Below, one piece after another: positions 25,988 through 55,993 of a stretch of DNA of 64,000 nt. This stretch comes from Norana najaformis. Lineage: Eukaryota > Annelida > Clitellata > Crassiclitellata > Hormogastridae. The stretch's first letter is position 1. Every line of letters begins with the position of its first letter. The notes under the pieces are model-generated. The model did not search any database and had not been told where the DNA came from. It worked only from the letters and a program-made list of their open reading frames with translations. The stretch is from NCBI GenBank assembly GCA_964023275.1, contig OZ029921.1, positions 15,665,306 to 15,729,305 of the forward strand, read 5' to 3'. The translations under genes were made by a program, and so were the position numbers.

Positions 25988-27683
25988 ATGCCTCGGAAGT
26001 GCGTAAATACTGTGGACAACTTTTGTTACATTTTTGGGGAAGTGACATTTGCCAACCAGAAGAAAAGTATCACTTATCAAGTCAAGAAGGCATATCATGC
26101 TTACTTCGAATGCAAGGTTGGTGACCAAGACAAGCCATGGGCCCCGCATATACGTATGCTGTGCTACATGTACAACACAGCTTTCACAGTGGTTGAATGG
26201 CAAAAGACCATCAATGCCGTTTGCAGTTCCCATGGTGTGGAGAGAGCAAAGCAACCACGTAGATGACTGTTACTTCTGCTTGGTTCCTCCTCTTTCCGGT
26301 GGAATAACGAAGCAAAAGAAGTCGACAATAGTCTACCCAAACATTCCGTCAGCATTGAGACCAGTTCCACATGGTGATGGACTTCCTATTCCAGAACCTC
26401 CAGCAGAATATATTTTCCTTGATTCATCTGATGAGGACAAGGGTGAGCCGACATGTTCTTCTCCTGGTCCGTCAGCGTGCAGTGATCCCGATTTTCACTG
26501 TGGTGCATCATCAACCCCACACAGAATAACACAGGAAGAACTAAATGACCTTGTTCGTGATTTGGACTTATCCAAAAACAAGGCAGAATTGCTAGGATCA
26601 AGACTCCAACAATGGAATCTTCTAGAAGAAGATGTCACAATTACTTCATATAGAAAGCGCCATCAGCAGTTGGAACCTTTCTTTATGAAGGAAGGTAATC
26701 TGGTATTCTGTTCCAATATTGACGACCTCATGAATGCCTTACAGATCACTCATGACCCACAAGAATGGAGACTCTTTGTAGACTCTTCAACACTGAGTCT
26801 TAAGGCTGTGCTTTTGCACAATGGAAACCGTCTTCCATCTATTCCATTAGCGCATGCTGTCCACATGAAAGAGACATACGATAACCTAAAACAGCTACTG
26901 CATTCCATTGACTATAACAGGTACAAATGGCACCTGTGTGGTGATTTGAAGGTAGTTGCCATTTTAATGGGACTGCAGCAAGGATATACAAAATATATGT
27001 GTTTCTTGTGTGAGTGGGATAGCCGAGCAAGAGAGTTGCACTACGTGCGGAAGGAATGGACTCCCAGACAAAACATGGCAGTTGGACAGAAGAATATCCA
27101 GCACCCAGCTCTGGTCGAGGCTCACAAAATCCTACTACCACCCCTTCACATCAAACTAGGTTTGGTGAAGAACTTCGTGAAAGCCATGGACCGCACTTCG
27201 CCAGCTTTCCGATACCTGCATGAAAAATTCCCTCGACTCAGCGAAGCAAAGATTAAAGAGGGAGTTTTTGTGGGTCCTCAGATTAGAGAACTCTTCAAAG
27301 ATGACCGCTTCAACAACTTGCTGGAGGGTGATGCGAAACAAGCATGGAATGCTTTTCGTCTAGTGTCTACAGACTTTCTGGGGAATGTTAGGGCAGAAAA
27401 CTACAAGGAACTAGTAGAAGACATGCTCAAGCAGTACCAGAAATTTCGCTGCAATATGTCTCTGAAGATGCATTTCCTTCATTCCCATCTGGATTTCTTC
27501 CCTGACAACTGTGGTATGGTTAGTGACGAACATGGCGAACGTTTTCATCAAGATATCGCAACAATGGAGCAAAGGTACCAGGGAAAATGGCCCACTACAA
27601 TGTTGGCTGACTACTGCTGGACACTCCGCAGAGATGCTCCCGAACAGCTGTACAAGAGACAGGCAAAAAAATCTAAGAACTAG
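25988..27683 (+). pseudogene. Transposase-like protein, one 4-nt frameshift
   Basis: ATG at 25988 opens MPRKCVNTVDNFCYIFGEVT, followed by VGDQDKPWAPHI. Then a 4-nt insertion near 26150-26158 shifts the frame; after it, CCATCTTQLSQWLNG, MPFAVPMVWREQ and the rest stay open to TAG at 27681. Ignoring those four bases the length is 563 codons. The N-terminus has a Cys pattern (C-x7-C ... C-C-x2-C) that looks metal-binding. Downstream, VDSSTLSLKAVLLHNG, WHLCGDLKVVAILMGLQQGY, CFLCEWDSRA and SDEHGERFHQDIATMEQRY offer spaced acidic residues suited to an RNase-H-like (DDE) fold. I recognise this as a widely multiplied, usually unnamed invertebrate protein family. Its transposase role is inferred from the flanking inverted ends. 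Confidence 0.75.
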
Positions 27684-33633: not shown

Positions 33634-33742
33634 ATACATACGTTACCGATGATGCTATGTAAATTGAATTATATTGTATTTTCTTTGCATTTGTGTTTCT
33701 AATGTTATCTCACTGCAATGCTTTCGCAGTGGCACCGTGAAG

Positions 33743-36199
33743 ATGCAGACAGACGTTTCTCGTTTCCTAGTGATGGTCTTCTGCTGCTTGGGTCTTGCTG
33801 CTAAGTCGACTTCTTCCTTCAGCATTGCTGGTTTAGCAGCAACAAAGGCACCGCCATCTGCGCCGGAGGTGGCTAAAGGCGCCGCCTTGGCTGCTGCAGT
33901 CGGTGAAAGAAAAGCAGATAATGACTCGACACTGATGGCAATTGATGTTTCTCGCATAGCTGAACAAGAAGCTCACGAAGGAGTGGACAGGAGGACGAAC
34001 GAAAAGACAGTGGAAGACGTGAAATACAAAAGAGAATTCTCTGAAACAGATGGGGAGCCGGAGAAGCGGGACAAATTGCTGATCGAGGCTCCAGTGAAGA
34101 CTGAAAAGGAGGATTTCCGAAGATTGCGAAGAGAAACAGAGGAGAAGGCATCATTGGAACAGACGAACGAAATGCTGCAGAGGAAGCAGGTAAACGAGAA
34201 GAGAAGAATTGCCGAGAAAGACGTAGGAGCCGAGGAGGAAAGGAAAGCAGAAGTCAACAGAGATGTCCAGGACTTGGCCAAGGACCTCAAGGGCAATCTG
34301 ATGGAGAAGAAGGTCCGCAGAGAATTCGAATACAGGCCCATCTTAGAAGAAGCCGAGGAGGAGGAGGAAAAGGAAGAGGCGAAGACGAGGAGAAACAGCG
34401 ACTCGAAAATGGCAGCCATCAAGAAGAAAAAGCTAAAGCGGGTCGAGAAAGAGCAGGATGAAGAGGAAGAGGAAGAGGAAAAGAAGAAGGAGGAGGAGGA
34501 GGAAGAGCAACAGCTGCTGGAAGAGATGATGAAGAAGCAGGACTTCAATGCCCGATTGAAGCGCCGATCTCTTCAGAATCGCCTAAGAAAACGTCACTCT
34601 GACGTTGATGACGATTATCGCGGCCGACGCTTTGCCAATGACGACAGTGACGACTTTCGTGCACGAAGATATTCGGCCGACGAAGATTTCCTCAGAAGAT
34701 ATTCTCGTGATGACGAGGACGAAGACAACAATGAAGATTATCGTCAGAGAAGATACTACGTGGACGACGATAGCTACTACCGGATTGGACGAGATCACCA
34801 GCGTAGACACTACAAAAACGACTACCGCGACAGACGATACGCTCACGGCGGAGATGAAGGTAAGACGCGGTTCTGGAGATATGCAGATGATGACGAAGAC
34901 GATGAAGACTTGAATCGTGCCATTAGATATGCTAACGATGACGCTTATAACGACTATCTGGCCAGAGTCATACGATATGCCGATGATGACGAATATCAGA
35001 ATGCAGCTAGGGCACTCAGAAACGCCGATGAAGATGATGAAGATATTGTACGAGGTATGAGGTATTCTAGTGACGATAATGAAGACCTGTTAGCACGAAG
35101 GATGAGGAATTCATATGATGATGGTAAAGATATGCTGGCCCAAAACATGAAGTACGCAGATGATGATGTGCTAGCACGAAACATGAGGTATTCGGACGAT
35201 GATAGACAAGATATATTGGCACGAAACATGAGGTATGCCACAGACGATAACAGAGATATTTCAGCACGAGCCTTGAGGTCCGCAAGTGACTCCAGTAAAG
35301 AGGCACTCGCTCGAATCAAGAGATATCCAAATAGCGATGAGAAAGATTACCTTGCGAGAAGCATGAGGTATGCAAGCGACGATTATGACGATGACATGGC
35401 TCGACGCCTCAGACATGCGGCTGACGATGTTAAAAATAAAGTGTCGAGAGACATGAAGCATGCAAGCGATGATAGTAAAGATGACGTAGCACGAGGGATG
35501 AGACATGCCAAGGATAACAGCAAAGGTGACCTTGCAAGGGCCATGCGGCGTGCAAAGGATAACAGCAGAGATGATGCAGCACAAGACATGAAGTACGCAA
35601 ACGATGAGAGCAAAGACGACAAAGCTCGAAGCATGAAACATGCAGCAGAAGACGCCAGAGGCGAACAAGCGAGAGGCATGAGCAATGCGGCTGAGGAAGA
35701 GGACGTTAAACGAGGCAGCAGGTATTCAGGCGACAACAGGAAGGCGAGAGAAAAAGAAGGCTCCTCTTCGGCCTCCTCATCTTCATCGGCAGCCTACGAA
35801 GCAGCTCGCAAGATCAGACACACGGATGACGGCGAAGAAAAGGGCGCATTCCAAGAAACGAACGAAAGACAGAGACGAATTTTCGGCATCCTTGACGATT
35901 ACATCCCTGGATGGAAGCGGTCGGCAGGCGACGAGACAGGAGTGGCAAAAGCTGACGTCATCAGCCGGAAGAAACGGTTCGTGCCCGCCTTCGACCAGTT
36001 TGGACAGCGCACCCACGTGATCAATTACGGTCCTGGTTCCTCTACCAGCAAGGTCCTCGATGACACCGTTGAAGTGTCTCGAAGGGATGCAGATAAGAAA
36101 CAAGCCAGGGACCGTCAAAAGCGCAGGCCAGCAGGCCAGGCCCGACGTCCAGTGAAGGTCAACAAGAAGCCGAAGGAGGCAAGAAGTGGGAGAAAGTGA
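33743..36199 (+). CDS. Secreted charged 15-residue-repeat protein A
   Basis: Not a family I recognise. ATG at 33743 (818 codons) is preferred over upstream readthrough because MQTDVSRFLVMVFCCLGLAA is a clean signal peptide, and an acceptor-like TGCTTTCGCAG ends 13 nt earlier. After an Ala-rich stretch comes a Lys/Glu-rich, coiled-coil-like part with poly-Glu (34345-34510), then dibasic-rich Asp/Tyr blocks (RRFANDDS, RRYSADED, RFWRYADDDEDDED). About eighteen 15-residue units of the form R-x-M-R-(Y/H)-A-x-D-D-x4-A follow (34910-35740). A poly-Ser patch precedes a distinct C-terminus with NERQRRIFGILDDYIPGWKR and RKKRFVPAFDQFGQ. A related gene lies at 53234-55993. A disordered extracellular matrix or mineral-binding protein, or a prohormone cut at dibasic sites, are both possible. 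Confidence 0.85.
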   Translation: MQTDVSRFLVMVFCCLGLAAKSTSSFSIAGLAATKAPPSAPEVAKGAALAAAVGERKADNDSTLMAIDVSRIAEQEAHEGVDRRTNEKTVEDVKYKREFSETDGEPEKRDKLLIEAPVKTEKEDFRRLRRETEEKASLEQTNEMLQRKQVNEKRRIAEKDVGAEEERKAEVNRDVQDLAKDLKGNLMEKKVRREFEYRPILEEAEEEEEKEEAKTRRNSDSKMAAIKKKKLKRVEKEQDEEEEEEEKKKEEEEEEQQLLEEMMKKQDFNARLKRRSLQNRLRKRHSDVDDDYRGRRFANDDSDDFRARRYSADEDFLRRYSRDDEDEDNNEDYRQRRYYVDDDSYYRIGRDHQRRHYKNDYRDRRYAHGGDEGKTRFWRYADDDEDDEDLNRAIRYANDDAYNDYLARVIRYADDDEYQNAARALRNADEDDEDIVRGMRYSSDDNEDLLARRMRNSYDDGKDMLAQNMKYADDDVLARNMRYSDDDRQDILARNMRYATDDNRDISARALRSASDSSKEALARIKRYPNSDEKDYLARSMRYASDDYDDDMARRLRHAADDVKNKVSRDMKHASDDSKDDVARGMRHAKDNSKGDLARAMRRAKDNSRDDAAQDMKYANDESKDDKARSMKHAAEDARGEQARGMSNAAEEEDVKRGSRYSGDNRKAREKEGSSSASSSSSAAYEAARKIRHTDDGEEKGAFQETNERQRRIFGILDDYIPGWKRSAGDETGVAKADVISRKKRFVPAFDQFGQRTHVINYGPGSSTSKVLDDTVEVSRRDADKKQARDRQKRRPAGQARRPVKVNKKPKEARSGRK

Positions 36200-36309
36200 G
36201 CAGGAGACCAGCGCACAGCAACGAGCTCTTGACGGAACTCAGTAAAATGTCGGCCGATGCTGGAACTCACCAAATTCTGAACCATTTTTCAAAATGAATT
36301 ATTGTCTAT

Positions 36310-36315
36310 ATTAAA
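36310..36315 (+). terminator. Possible polyadenylation signal ATTAAA
   Basis: The variant hexamer ATTAAA lies 110 nt after the stop of repeat protein A. No AATAAA is closer. Confidence 0.35.
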
Positions 36316-36733
36316 ATCACTTTTCTTGCATGCTGTTAAATCGAGTTGAGTGTGTTCGGTGTTACAAATTAAAATTTTAACTGCTTATTGATGCGAAATT
36401 TAGTACAATGTATCTACTAGTGAGTTGATCGGTTTACCTAATGTGGCTCCTTAGTAAGTGGCTTCTAGTAAGATTAGGTTAGGCCACTTTTATTTTTCGT
36501 GAATTGCTTAGTAACTTGTTACTAGCTTCTTGGCCTTTCTTTGCCTTTATTCCGTCAACGGTTGAAAATCATTTTGTTAGACTGTGGTTTCGTGCCGTCA
36601 GTTTAAGAAGCCATCGAATTTTCTTTAGCAGGACCTTTGGCGGAAGACAGGAAGAAACGTGGTAATTATATGCAAGTTTGCGATAAGGCAAAGGTGATAT
36701 TAGCATGAGAAAAACAACAGAGTTGGATAGTAG

Positions 36734-42539: not shown

Positions 42540-43850
42540 TTCAACAAAATCCGCTCTTTTTGCTGTTCATAAGGTTATCATGGGCAAATGAATAAGAGTA
42601 GAGTGACAACACTTGTTCTTCTTGACTTGTATTCTGTTTTTGATTCTGTGGACCATTCTCTTCTTTTTTCATCATCTCCAGCACTGATTTGGGTTTCTGG
42701 TCCCAACCTGCATTGGCTTGCTACTTATCTTAGTCCACGCACCCAATCAGTATATTGAATGGTGATATTTGTCTAATGCTTTGTCAGCATGTGGCGTTCC
42801 GCAGAGTTCTGTGTTTGGTCCATTTTTGTTTACGCTATACAACAAGCCATTAGGTACATTGCTCGACAATCATTCACTGGAATATCATTTCTATGCTGAC
42901 TATACTCAAATCTGTATTTCGTTTGACAATTTGTTTTGCCAGTCGTCTGTGCAGCAGCGGTTCATTGTCTTTGAGGAAGTGCAGTCTCGGATGGCAGTAA
43001 TAAACTCCTTCTTAACCCATCGAAAACTGAATTTCTACTAATGGGCAACCCTCAGCAACTCAAGAAATTTGAATGGCTTAAATCCTTAAAACTGGGTGAC
43101 TCACGTGTTGAGTTGGCTGATGCTGCTCGTAAATTGTGCGTTGCTTTTGGTTCTACCATGTCTCTTACTGGCTCTGTAAATGGTATTTATATATCATCAT
43201 ACATGTATATTCATGACATGTGTAGAATTAGTCGTTATATTCTCATGTCTTCTAGGATATCATTGTCAAACGCATTGATATCCAGTCGCCTTGACTACTG
43301 TAACTCGCTTCTGGTTGACATAACAAACTCAACATGCAAACTCGTAAAACTTCGGAACTTCTTGGCTAAAGCCATAACAAATATGTAAAAATATTAGCAT
43401 ATAATCCCTTTGCTTCGATATTTACATTGAATTCATGTTCAGCAAAGCATTTATTTCAAATTGCGCTTATAGTTTAAAAAAACAGTGAACAGTGGCTAAC
43501 CACAATACTTAAAATCAGTCCTCATTCCACCGACTCCTCGTTTTTAAACCAGGCCACCTGATTGTCTTTCTCTGGTCATACCTAAGACTAGAACTTTCAT
43601 GGTGCACCAGGTTTTTCGGTTGCTGGACCTAGATTTTGGAATTCTCTTTCTGTATCTGTTCTTCTGCTCAGTCGCTTTTGGTTTTTTCCCAACTTAAAAC
43701 TTACCTGCTACAAATTGCATATCCACCGTGGGGTGCCTCTTTGTGTTATTGGACTGACCTTCTGGATATTGACCTGATTGCGGCTTGGCTTTTGGTGCGT
43801 CAGTTGATGCCTTGTGCATTAGACACCAGCGCGATAGAAGTTACTAATTA
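42540..43850 (+). mobile_element. CR1-like LINE, reverse transcriptase C-terminal half (dead)
   Basis: Across all three frames one follows the RT order: VLLDLYSVFDSVDHSLL, then GVPQSSVFGPFLFTLYNKPL, then the catalytic box as YADY where active copies have YADD. Later come NPQQLKKFEWLKSLKLGDSR, ISSRLDYCNSLLVDI and the C-terminal VAGPRFWNSLSVSV. The lost second Asp plus several frameshifts show that it is inactive. The GVPQGSVLGP-like and LDYCNALL-like blocks are typical of the CR1/Rex group. Confidence 0.75.
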
Positions 43851-52050: not shown

Positions 52051-53233
52051 ACTGGAAGACCACAACCATACAGTCGGTAACAGACCCGATGAAACAGACA
52101 GGCGAAAACGAAAGCAACTGGAGACTGAACTAAGGTTTGAATAGGCAGGCTGATTATAACTGATAAATACAGATTCTATTCATGAACTCTTGAGTCTTCT
52201 GAAAACCGTTGAGTCTAGCTATGTCCTAAGTGTTTCTTATCTAAACTGCTCTTAAAGCTGTCTTTAGGAACATGGCAGATAAGCTACATTTCTTGATGGT
52301 GTGCAACAAGGCCTACTGATGTAAACAGTGATGCTAATATTAATGTTAGGCCAAATAATATTGTCATTATAACGGCCTTCTCGGAGGCTTTGAGGCAGAA
52401 ATGTGTATAGGCCTATTACTGATACAAATATCTTAGGCCTACAAACACGTAAATTTGTGAAAAATACAGAATACTAGTAATAATATTAATATTCTGTAAT
52501 AAATGAGCTGATTATCTAATTGATCAACAATTGATGAATTCTTGTGCAACATAGTTTTCAGATGATCTAGGAAGCAAAAGGGACCATTGACCGACGATGG
52601 ATTTTCGTCTTGGCCCAGAAAGTAGATTTTAAAACCGTACATTTAAATGAAATCGGGTAGTAGCAGCAAAGGCGCAGTAAATACAGCATATTTTATTAAT
52701 CTCAGTACTATTTTAATTTTAATTCGTTGTTCACTGATAATATCTGAGTCAATGTGAGGTTATTATTATTGGGAAATCTTAGTCATAAAAGAATCATCAA
52801 ATTGATAACAGTAAAGATAGACAGATTTCTGTATAAACACTACTTCATAGGCATGCGTTTATGCACAAAAATTTCTTTGTATGTAATATCTTTGCAACTA
52901 TTACTTTACAAAAAAATAAAGTTAAGTATGTAATAAACAAACTGGCAACATAACTTTTAAACAGATATATACAATATAATGCAATATTTAAAAAAATTTA
53001 ATTGCTGTAATATTTTTTATAAAGTTTCATATAAAAATCAAGCGACTTGCTCAGTTTTATTGTTTTATTTGTATAATTAAATTTTGGAAACAGTACTAAC
53101 GCAGAGAAAGTTAAACAGTAAGGCCTAAATGGTTGAACAATCGCCCGTGAGGCCGGACTTAGGCACCGATGTAATTAGGCCTTGTGAAGAAGAGTCATTG
53201 TCCAAAGGCATTTGTTTTTCAGCGATATACTGG
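52051..53233. other. 3' flank of repeat gene B, AT-rich
   Basis: The segment just below 53234 should hold the 3' UTR of the minus-strand gene. AATAAA hexamers (minus) occur at 53056-53061 and 53064-53069, about 170 nt after the stop, and are good polyadenylation candidates. No other gene seen. Confidence 0.5.
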
Positions 53234-55993
53234 TCATTCAAGGAGCAGGCGTTTACCCTGGTCTTCAGAAGGGGTCACTGGTGACTGTAAGTCATAAACC
53301 TTAGATCCTGTCCCTGAGTTTTGACTAGTGCCCTCTGCCTTCGTGTAATTTTCGGATTCAGTTGCATTCAAGCCTTTATCTTCGTCGTGCGGATTCTCGT
53401 GATTTGATACGTGAACGTGCTTTTCATTAAGCTGCATTCCAACCTCGGTTCCGTTGTCAGCTTCGGTGCCTGGCATTATGCGCTCACTGGAAATTTCTCC
53501 AGTTTCCAATTCCATTTTACCAGTCGCGTTTTCAGAAGCTGGATGTTTCTCATCTTCGATGCTGGTTGGACTCTGACGAATTTTAGCAAGACGAGGCACT
53601 AGACCAGATATCAGGAGACCGTAGGCTGCAGATCCTCTTCTGGACCTGGCTTTCCTTCTGTATGTCTGCTCGTCAGTCGACCTCTTTCCCTGCGGAAGGT
53701 CGCTGTCCCAGTGACTCCTCGCAATCCACCGCTTCACATGACTTCTGTCTTCATCCAGGTCGGATTCATCCACTGCACCCATCAACTTGCGTTCGTTCTC
53801 ATCCGCTTCATTCTCGGTGCTACGTTTACGGTCGTCGTCCACGAGTCTCCGTCTGCGAGTTTCTTCTACCCTGGCATCATCGTCTGCTTTTCTCATTTTG
53901 CGTTCCTCTTCCCTATCCATATTTTTACCGTCATCTTCTGCATACCTCATATTTCGTTCTTTGTCGTTATCATCGTCCGCGTGTCTCCTTTTATCATCAT
54001 CCAAGTGTCTTATTCTGCGCCCTTTGTATTCCGTTATTTTTTCATCATCATCATCAGCAGCAGCAGCAGCATCAGCAGCATCAGCATCAGCAGCATCAGC
54101 ATCAGCATCAGCATGTCTCACCCTGCGTTCTTCCTCCTTTTCGCCCGTTCTTCCGGAGTCAGTCTCCGCCTGCTTCAGCTGCTTATGTTCCGCTGCATCA
54201 TCTTCGAATTTATAGCCCTTGTCAACAGTGTTTCTCCTCTCATGAACTTCATCCTCGTTGGTTCGATCGTCATCAACTGCTAATCTCCTTTCCCGATCTT
54301 CGTCCTCTTCACTGGCTTTATCTTCATCACCAGCGTATCTAATACTGCGTAGTCTATTATAGAACCTCTTACGGTCATCGTCTGCGTGCCTCATCTTACG
54401 CCCTTCATACTCCGAGCTCTCTCCTTCGTCGTCCGCATGTCTGATCCGACGAGCTTCGTTACCTCGAAATTCTTCGTCTTCGCCCGTTTTCACGTCATCG
54501 TACGCGTGTCTTACCTTGCGATAGTCATAATCGCTTCTTTTTTCGTTGTCCGCGTATCTGGCCAAGTTTTCTTCTTCTCTCGATTTACCGTGGTCGACTG
54601 CTTTTCTTAGATTGCGAATGATATCGTAGTTATTAGCGGCATTAACATCAGCGTGTCTATCTGCACGCATCACTTCGTCGTGATCGTACCTGGCGACGTC
54701 CGCATTTCTTATGTCACGAAGGAGGCCGATGTCTCCTTCGTAGTTACTGTCGTCTTCGGCATATCTCCAGAATCTTCTTCGATTATCGTCGTCGAATCGA
54801 TGCCGTCGTTGACGGTAATTGCCTTCATCACTGAGATCACGGTAAACGCTGCGCCGATAGTCATTGCTCTCTTTATTAAACGCTTTGGGGCCTCTGTAAT
54901 TGCGCCGGTAGTTATTATTAAAGCGATGTTTTCCTTTGGACTGCTGTGGGTAGAGATACTTTTTACCGGCTTTGTGAGGAGTACGTTGAGAGCGACCTCT
55001 ATACAATTCGTTATAGGTCCTCTTCTGTTTGCTGTATCTTCGCTGCTTCAGCGCTTCCTGCTCCTCTTCCTCTTGCTCCTCGTCTTGGTCCTCCTCTTCC
55101 TCGTCCTCCTTCTCCTCCTCCTCCTCTTCCTCCTCCTGTACGTCATCGTGACGCTTGGTTTTGGATTCTTCGTCTTTTTCGAAGTCCGACTCGTCCATAC
55201 CTGCGTCCTTGTATTGGTAGTGACGTTTCTTCTTCTCAGCAACGCCAGTCTTCTCCTTCTTCTGCTCTTCCTTCTGCTCCTCTTCCTGTTCCTCCTCCTC
55301 TTCCTCCTCTTCAGCCTCCGCCTCCTCCGCAGCCGCTGCTGCTTCTGCGTCGGCGGCGCCAACTGCGCTGGCTGCTTCTCGTCTACCTTCCGCATCCTGG
55401 TTGCTGCGCTTGTCTTTCTCTTTGTCCTCTGCAGCCGCCTTCTTGGCCATCTTCTTTTCATCGGTCGCTGACAACCTTTCTGATTTCTTCTCTGTACCTA
55501 TTTCCTCTTTCTTTTCTGCATCTCTCTTGACCTTTCGAACTCTCTCTACGCTGTCTTCTCCACTCTCCACGCTGTCTTCTCCACTCTCCACGCTGTCTTC
55601 TCCACTCTCTGCTCCCTGTTCATCCTCTTCCTCCTCCTCTTCCTCCTCTTCTTCATCAGCTTGATGTAGCTCCTTAAGCAAGTTCTTCCACTTTTCCAGC
55701 ATCCTTCTTGCTGTTGAGAATCTCGCCACCTCCATCGACCCAGCCTCCTCAGAATCCGGAAGCAAAATGGAGGGCACTTCAGTTGAATTGAAGTCTGGTT
55801 CGTGATCAATCGACTGCGTCGTTTGGGGCATGTGGTTGTCCATCGTTTCAGCTGTCCCTTCCGGTCGAATACGGCGGATAGTGCGAGCATCAGCAAAGCG
55901 TTGAAGGCTGAGCATCATCATCATCATCATCAGACCAACTGTCAGCAACCACATACTGCTCACTCTGCGTAACAGGCACACATACAACGTCAT
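53234..55993 (-). CDS. Secreted charged-repeat protein B (paralogue of A)
   Basis: 919 codons from ATG at 55993. A signal peptide is clear (MWLLTVGLMMMMMMLSLQ then RFADA; M14 may be the true start). Next come three perfect SGEDSVE heptads (about 55546-55611), Lys/Glu-rich and poly-Glu blocks, and an Arg/Tyr/Asn-rich stretch (KHRFNNNYRRNYRG). RRFWRYAEDDS opens the repeat part, with variable 15-20-residue units such as RKMRHADDDRKR and RSIRYAGDEDK, and an ADADAADADAAD run encoded by GCA/TCA-type triplets on the plus strand. The end contains HVKRWIARSHWDSDLPQGKR, then RRKARSRRGSAAYGLL and a tail with four N-glycosylation sequons (NAT, NGT, NAT, NYT). RFWRYA(D/E)DD, the dibasic density and the architecture are shared with protein A. 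Function unknown; extracellular. Confidence 0.85.
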   Translation of the reverse strand: MTLYVCLLRRVSSMWLLTVGLMMMMMMLSLQRFADARTIRRIRPEGTAETMDNHMPQTTQSIDHEPDFNSTEVPSILLPDSEEAGSMEVARFSTARRMLEKWKNLLKELHQADEEEEEEEEEEDEQGAESGEDSVESGEDSVESGEDSVERVRKVKRDAEKKEEIGTEKKSERLSATDEKKMAKKAAAEDKEKDKRSNQDAEGRREAASAVGAADAEAAAAAEEAEAEEEEEEEEQEEEQKEEQKKEKTGVAEKKKRHYQYKDAGMDESDFEKDEESKTKRHDDVQEEEEEEEEKEDEEEEDQDEEQEEEEQEALKQRRYSKQKRTYNELYRGRSQRTPHKAGKKYLYPQQSKGKHRFNNNYRRNYRGPKAFNKESNDYRRSVYRDLSDEGNYRQRRHRFDDDNRRRFWRYAEDDSNYEGDIGLLRDIRNADVARYDHDEVMRADRHADVNAANNYDIIRNLRKAVDHGKSREEENLARYADNEKRSDYDYRKVRHAYDDVKTGEDEEFRGNEARRIRHADDEGESSEYEGRKMRHADDDRKRFYNRLRSIRYAGDEDKASEEDEDRERRLAVDDDRTNEDEVHERRNTVDKGYKFEDDAAEHKQLKQAETDSGRTGEKEEERRVRHADADADAADADAADAAAAADDDDEKITEYKGRRIRHLDDDKRRHADDDNDKERNMRYAEDDGKNMDREEERKMRKADDDARVEETRRRRLVDDDRKRSTENEADENERKLMGAVDESDLDEDRSHVKRWIARSHWDSDLPQGKRSTDEQTYRRKARSRRGSAAYGLLISGLVPRLAKIRQSPTSIEDEKHPASENATGKMELETGEISSERIMPGTEADNGTEVGMQLNEKHVHVSNHENPHDEDKGLNATESENYTKAEGTSQNSGTGSKVYDLQSPVTPSEDQGKRLLLE

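Follow-up and report, generated by a model that had tools for sequence, protein, structure and literature searches.

The window analysed here, a stretch of 64,000 nucleotides of the Norana najaformis genome (C9:15665306-15729305; genome of 608,420,607 bases in 17 contigs), holds two convergent genes, here called A and B, which lie 17 kb apart. Protein A (818 aa) is read from one open frame on the plus strand (33743..36199) and protein B (919 aa) from one open frame on the minus strand (53234..55993), and each finds itself in its own genome as a 100% match. Measured from stop to stop, the frames stay open over 843 and 924 codons, respectively, which makes them the longest two in the window. Both frames, as well as their convergent orientation, lie where the initial annotation had placed them.

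Judging from the letters around and within the frames, A and B are each likely to be encoded in a single coding exon. A candidate splice acceptor AG lies 15 bases before the ATG of A (33728..33729, plus strand), recognised by consensus only and with 10 pyrimidines among the 15 preceding bases, and suggests an upstream noncoding exon; the simplest model for A would be one coding exon after this noncoding one. Four weaker candidate acceptors are found within 140 bases upstream of the ATG of B. Past the stop codons, A is followed by two ATTAAA polyadenylation-like signals (36310..36373, plus strand; 110 and 168 bases past the stop) and B by two AATAAA polyadenylation signals (53056..53069, minus strand; 164 and 172 bases past the stop). 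Donor-like GTRAG sequences occur inside both frames, two in A (counting one at the stop) and six in B. Those in A are a GTAAGA at 34860-34865 on the plus strand (frame base 1117, AAG/GTAAGA), just 5' of the RFWRYA block described below, and a GTGAGC at 36196-36201 on the same strand, which spans the stop codon. The donor-like sequences of the two genes are ordinary Lys, Arg, Ser and Val codons and may be due to chance, but they may also be used for splicing in either gene; A could thus be spliced differently from the single-exon model, using the GTAAGA and GTGAGC sites.

The two proteins share a general layout. Both N-termini carry a hydrophobic, signal-like segment, in line with the signal peptides claimed for them earlier: the putative signal peptide of A (33743..33820, plus strand) comprises approximately residues 1-26, with an uncertain cleavage point and a hydrophobic peak at residues 8-19, while that of B (55886..55993, minus strand) ends in ...RFADA and peaks at residues 15-30 (best 12-residue Kyte-Doolittle means near the N-terminus of 2.8 for A and 2.2 for B). 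The Lys/Glu-rich and poly-Glu blocks that had been described are likewise present, as a Glu/Lys-rich block in A (34100..34642, plus strand; approximately residues 120-300) and as poly-Glu and Lys-Glu blocks in B (55034..55660, minus strand; approximately residues 112-320). The net charge of A is nearly neutral (-12) and that of B is acidic (-76). An AlphaFold model of A alone, built without an alignment and of low confidence (mean pLDDT 50.8), renders the Glu/Lys-rich block as two long helices reaching up to 82 per 10-residue block. Outside these helices the values are mostly below 50 to 70, and further helices are modelled at residues 532-572 and 579-657 (pLDDT approximately 50-71 per 10-residue block).

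The central feature of both proteins is a repeat part built on a common unit, R-x-[MILV]-R-[YHN]-[AS]-x-D-D. In A (34658..35821, plus strand), 10 of 16 spacings between units are exactly 15 residues, and in B (53864..54814, minus strand) the spacing is irregular, ranging from 17 to 74 residues. A shared block reads RFWRYADDD in A (34868..34894, plus strand; starting at residue 376) and RFWRYAEDD in B (54749..54775, minus strand; starting at residue 407). This block had been said to open the repeats; it is present in both proteins, but it is not strictly a repeat opener, because R-x-x-R units occur N-terminal to it, at residues 306, 334 and 362 of A and at residue 394 of B. A dibasic-rich C-terminus had also been proposed, and this stands for the dibasic-flanked segment that follows the repeats in both proteins, but not for the very end of B, where the final 133 residues contain just one basic pair, along with four N-glycosylation sequons. 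Within the segment after the repeats, a candidate C-terminal peptide of A, IFGILDDYIPGW, is flanked by RQRR and KR (35879..35914, plus strand), and B has a candidate peptide WIARSHWDSDLPQG, with an amidation Gly present and KR following (53687..53728, minus strand). By eye, we judge that IFGILDDYIPGW-KR in A and WIARSHWDSDLPQG-KR in B (12 to 14 residues, after the repeats) correspond to each other. Over the full proteins, the number of basic pairs is only mildly above that in local shuffles for A (49 vs 40.7, s.d. 4.9), and amounts to 51 vs 37.8 (s.d. 4.7) for B.

The proposal that A and B are paralogues is supported at the sequence level by two comparisons. An unmasked local alignment of A and B scored 449, compared to maxima of 363, 357, 353 and 240 when B was shuffled in blocks of 10, 20 or 40 residues or over all residues (200 trials each). 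As poly-Glu can inflate such a local alignment, a stricter profile test was made. Its units were all R-x-x-[RK] occurrences in the repeat part that are spaced by 8 residues or more from the preceding one, which gave 25 units for A and 15 for B. The profile excluded the Arg columns, and the controls kept Arg and Lys fixed while shuffling the remaining residues within 20 residues. The profile trained on A recognised the B units with a z of 10.4 and the profile trained on B recognised the A units with a z of 12.6, in both cases with 0 of 2000 controls reaching the score. The earlier argument that acidic bias is insufficient to account for the resemblance is thus borne out, given that the similarity persists when Arg and Lys are fixed and the other residues shuffled locally, and that exact RFWRYA(D/E)DD is found only in A and B. 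BLASTP with compositional adjustment gave no A-B match (best E 25), the own-genome search with A scored 55 of 72 candidates and did not report B, and that with B, with 50 of 555 candidates scored, reported only the self match and not A. In six frames of the window, the nine-residue motif [RK].[MLIVWF][RK][YHNSK][AS].[DE][DE] occurs 12 times in A, seven times in B and nowhere else; the shuffle numbers for this motif are descriptive, as it was written after seeing the A and B sequences.

The retention of the unit was assessed from substitutions between its copies. Across all nine columns, pS was 0.79 for A-A, 0.78 for B-B and 0.88 for A-B pairs, values close to saturation of the silent sites. 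For the R, R, A, D and D columns, pN/pS was nevertheless 0.22, 0.20 and 0.21 for A-A, B-B and A-B, respectively, and at the two x columns it was 1.0, 0.55 and 0.71, with a column grouping that was set after the variable columns had been seen and with units that are not independent lineages. That Arg, Ala and Asp are held against near-saturated silent sites implies that selection keeps the protein motif, and the saturation itself that the unit array is not a recent expansion. Some of the 19 A units used here are degenerate, with Gln, Lys or Ser in Arg columns, and Arg occupies P4 in 17 and P1 in 14 of the 19, with Lys at P1 in four. The 12 B units were chosen with basic residues required at columns 0 and 3 and with columns 4 and 5 restricted, and their conservation is inflated because the selecting pattern demands basic columns; the silent-site saturation is unaffected by this. 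A shifted-frame control was set aside, as just 21 and 1 of its 171 pairs could be used (ratios 0.78 and 0.38). The search pattern placed unit sites at 21 positions in A and 12 in B. Since the Arg-rich composition of the two proteins makes R-x-x-R common by chance, its frequency was compared with shuffled sequences: the 30 occurrences in A are more than in any of 2000 shuffles for each of three block sizes, while the 22 in B are a modest excess over means of 14.6 and 14.3 in local-block shuffles (reached by 39 and 21 of 2000) and compare to a mean of 11.7 in whole-protein shuffles (reached by 1 of 2000).

The shared sequences are also rare in the genome as a whole. RFWRYA(D/E)DD without mismatch occurs at two places, one in A and one in B, and a third place, on C11 and with two mismatches, does not rise above the control, which likewise gave one. 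A 27-base pattern for R-x-M-R-[YH]-A-x-D-D matched exactly at four places, two in A and two in B (reversed control: 0), and one for R-x-(middle base T)-R-[YH]-A-D-D-[DE] matched at five, three of them in A or B (controls: 0). These counts can be lower bounds, with some stretches given as N, and would miss a third member that had diverged strongly. They thus leave two recognisable family members and, as far as such patterns reach, support an orphan family in which two genes can be recognised. The single pattern matches on C11 (two) and C1 (one) have stops close to them and lack a repeated unit, and the two places of the middle-base-T pattern outside A and B also read Ser where the unit has Arg; all were set aside. 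Five matches to A on C12 fall in a satellite-like frame with a regular repeat of 15 residues, NQSLGESKDVLSHSV, that is unrelated by eye. This very regular tandem array (L007:2477-5404, minus strand) occupies a 975-codon frame and may be a satellite or a repeat protein. In the 200 kb past the window (of which 5 kb reads N), a motif scan gave one match, RGLRKSDEE, which is not flanked by repeats, and neither A nor B had a tblastn match at E 1e-3.

Searches for relatives further afield gave no named family for either protein in Pfam, NCBIfam, PDB sequences and three protein searches, and in this respect the initial annotation holds. Pfam yielded 0 families for both proteins at E up to 1, NCBIfam, whose library is prokaryotic, yielded none at E up to 0.1, and the PDB sequence search found no relative of A or B at E 0.001. 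Weaker PDB sequence matches (one for A with E 0.74; four for B with E 0.097-0.28) were rejected as charged-segment or chance matches, and a fold search with the low-confidence model of A gave 0 PDB matches. Protein searches with residues 685-818 of A (303 candidates, E<=10), residues 270-818 of A (7984 candidates scored, E<=0.001) and residues 325-919 of B (7996 candidates, E<=1) gave none, the latter two having scored the top word-sharing candidates, which low-complexity words can crowd. Searches of prokaryote and virus contigs for similar loci produced 36 and 9 pattern stretches for A and 63 (viral) for B, of which 0 were confirmed; as these collections are prokaryotic and viral, the result says little about relatives of A and B. 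Neither protein had a Pfam or protein-search match to a named neuropeptide family, though short peptides can escape such searches. When peptide strings from A and B were sought in the literature, the matches listed held accidental occurrences of irhad and mryad, and the other four strings had 0 occurrences. Among the open-access papers listed on R-x-x-R repeat polyproteins, invertebrate granins and orphan precursors, none had a title or abstract that pointed to a plan like that of A and B. Going by sequence, we place the pair as a new family of two genes in the wider group of convertase-processed or charged-repeat secreted proteins.

The reading that we prefer, and to which we give an even chance, is that A and B belong, as paralogues, to an orphan and probably lineage-restricted family of secreted proproteins and are cut by proprotein convertases. 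Their secretion, cleavage, peptide ends, expression, tissue and signalling role are what we infer under it. The signal peptides would route both proteins into the secretory pathway, where proprotein convertases would cut after the second Arg in each R-x-[MILV]-R unit and turn the repeat part into peptides of roughly 14-19 residues. The dibasic-flanked C-terminal peptides would also be freed, as IFGILDDYIPGW from A and WIARSHWDSDLPQ-amide from B, and the Glu/Lys-rich N-terminal half would serve as a charged spacer that may aid packing of the precursor into granules. If every unit were cut, 27 intervals are predicted (16 in A and 11 in B; for example YANDDAYNDYLARVIR, YSSDDNEDLLARRMR and HADDEGESSEYEGRKMR), 19 of which are 14-19 residues long, 24 of which begin with Tyr, His or Asn and 17 of which are net negative. 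The predicted products are not uniform, since 10 of the 27 are not net negative and eight fall outside 14-19 residues, with lengths up to 74. An amidation Gly is absent after the repeat peptides. Tyr or His at P1-prime is not a favourite of furin, and some of the pattern common to A and B may reflect a different constraint.

Both A and B have repeated segments that lie between basic cleavage-consensus sites, a feature by which a convertase-processed precursor can be recognised, and the R-x-x-R of the repeat unit, a minimal furin-type consensus, is probably a convertase site, an interpretation absent from the initial annotation. Enzymes of this type are encoded in the same genome, where the proprotein-convertase P domain (P_proprotein) has 10 matches on 8 contigs, all 10 over the cut-off and some of them fragments. 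Published work gives R-x-x-R as a furin consensus (PMC9395820) and as a site type for predicting peptides from bilaterian precursors (PMC6756747). In pig prohormones, R-x-x-R ranks among the motifs most often cleaved (34%), though only 14.6% of all possible sites are cleaved (PMC3499383), and a paper on nemertean, brachiopod and phoronid neuropeptides describes monobasic Arg sites, deduced from mass spectrometry, that are preceded by another basic residue 3-6 positions upstream (PMC8557429). Compared to invertebrate multi-copy neuropeptide and peptide-hormone precursors, A and B are alike in their signal-like start, in repeats split by basic cleavage-type sites and in the candidate amidated C-terminal peptide of B, but they differ in that the repeats use R-x-x-R rather than KR or GKR and lack the amidation Gly, in their long Glu/Lys spacer and in matching no known peptide family. 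A more specific form of the reading, which we put forward only tentatively, is that A and B make up an orphan prohormone family with every tandem R-x-[MILV]-R/[YH]-A-x-D-D unit as a processing site and approximately 11-16 different peptides per precursor, mostly starting with Tyr, His or Asn, and that this family would act as a peptide-signalling or peptide-effector system with two recognisable genes and no outside relative known.

It is possible, though in our view unlikely, that A and B are instead granin-like granule proteins, i.e. charged, largely unstructured secreted proteins whose condensation in the trans-Golgi packs other cargo, with cleavage as a side effect. Granins (chromogranin/secretogranin) are stored in dense-core granules and aggregate at low pH with calcium. 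A and B resemble them in their signal-like N-termini, Glu-rich (poly-Glu) blocks and basic pairs (49 in A and 51 in B), and the low-confidence fold of A (mean pLDDT 50.8) is consistent with a lack of structure; the liquid scaffold that chromogranins build in the TGN (PMC9526250) offers a precedent. On the other hand, neither protein has a Granin match in Pfam, A is nearly neutral rather than strongly acidic (only B, at -76, is acidic), and the R-x-x-R array sets the pair apart, its residue-by-residue retention as R-x-x-R-Y-A-x-D-D being left unexplained by granule packing.

We are similarly doubtful that the two proteins are uncut structural extracellular polyampholytes of a mineral-binding, mucus or adhesive matrix, comparable to Pif80 of the pearl oyster shell matrix. 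Their charged Asp/Arg repeats in a probably secreted protein recall the Asp/Arg/Lys-charged repeats of Pif80, whose DDRK-repeat fragments bind aragonite (PMC4971512) and thereby supply a precedent. The kept motif goes beyond charge, however, with a mostly hydrophobic P2 and Tyr/His-Ala, and R-x-[MILV]-R-[YH]-A-x-D-D is distinct from DDRK. The VWA and chitin-binding domains that together define Pif/BMSP proteins are absent from A and B by Pfam, which had no match in either. By the domain test, A and B are neither granins nor Pif, although they may act like either.

A poorer fit is obtained if the repeats are taken as helical, LEA-like modules of 15 residues that act as spacer or protectant, with the Arg pair as a feature of the helix surface, and we regard this as improbable. 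The 10 of 16 spacings of exactly 15 in A speak for such modules, as do the AlphaFold helices at residues 532-572 and 579-657 (pLDDT approximately 50-71), and the short charged repeats in the later units of A, with some predicted helix, recall LEA-type helical polyampholytes. That model is alignment-free and of low confidence, however, Asp runs are poor in helix, and the signal-like start is unlike LEA-type proteins. An LEA Pfam domain together with a regular period, as expected of LEA proteins, is not found, as Pfam gave no match and the period of B is not fixed: B retains the motif at spacings of 17-74 residues. With the short motif kept and the period (mostly 15 in A) not, a processing site fits better than a helical module. 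Finally, that the A-B similarity is convergent low-complexity bias, or that the frames are translated otherwise than read, is very improbable: composition-adjusted BLASTP (best E 25) and the genome searches fail to connect A with B and donor-like sequences lie within both frames, but the profile cross-test is positive in both directions (z 10.4 and 12.6), the exact shared block occurs only twice in the genome, residues are held against near-saturated silent sites, and the frames of 843 and 924 codons are the two longest in the window.

Homology searches readily overlook peptide precursors, which change quickly in evolution. Recognising a family by its conserved cleavage-type unit rather than by its peptides offers a route to such orphans from the genome alone, and the A/B unit yields a clear prediction for peptidomics. 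If the peptides expected from convertase processing exist, they form a peptide system of this animal that has no known relatives, and if they do not, an unusually strong constraint acts on a pair of charged-repeat secreted proteins.

Elsewhere in the window, the minus strand between 10761 and 20830 carries exons of a laminin-G and EPTP (EAR repeat) gene, with four exon-sized frames matching EPTP and one matching Laminin_G_2, which we take to resemble TSPEAR-type proteins; these EPTP and laminin-G exons are themselves a sign of animal DNA. A reverse-transcriptase fragment on the plus strand (42766-43041) is indicated by a weak Pfam match below the cut-off (E 0.011). An intronless frame of 545 codons on the plus strand (26046-27683) has no Pfam match and is probably a mobile element, because a look-alike frame of 554 codons, similar by eye, lies approximately 115 kb past the end of the window.
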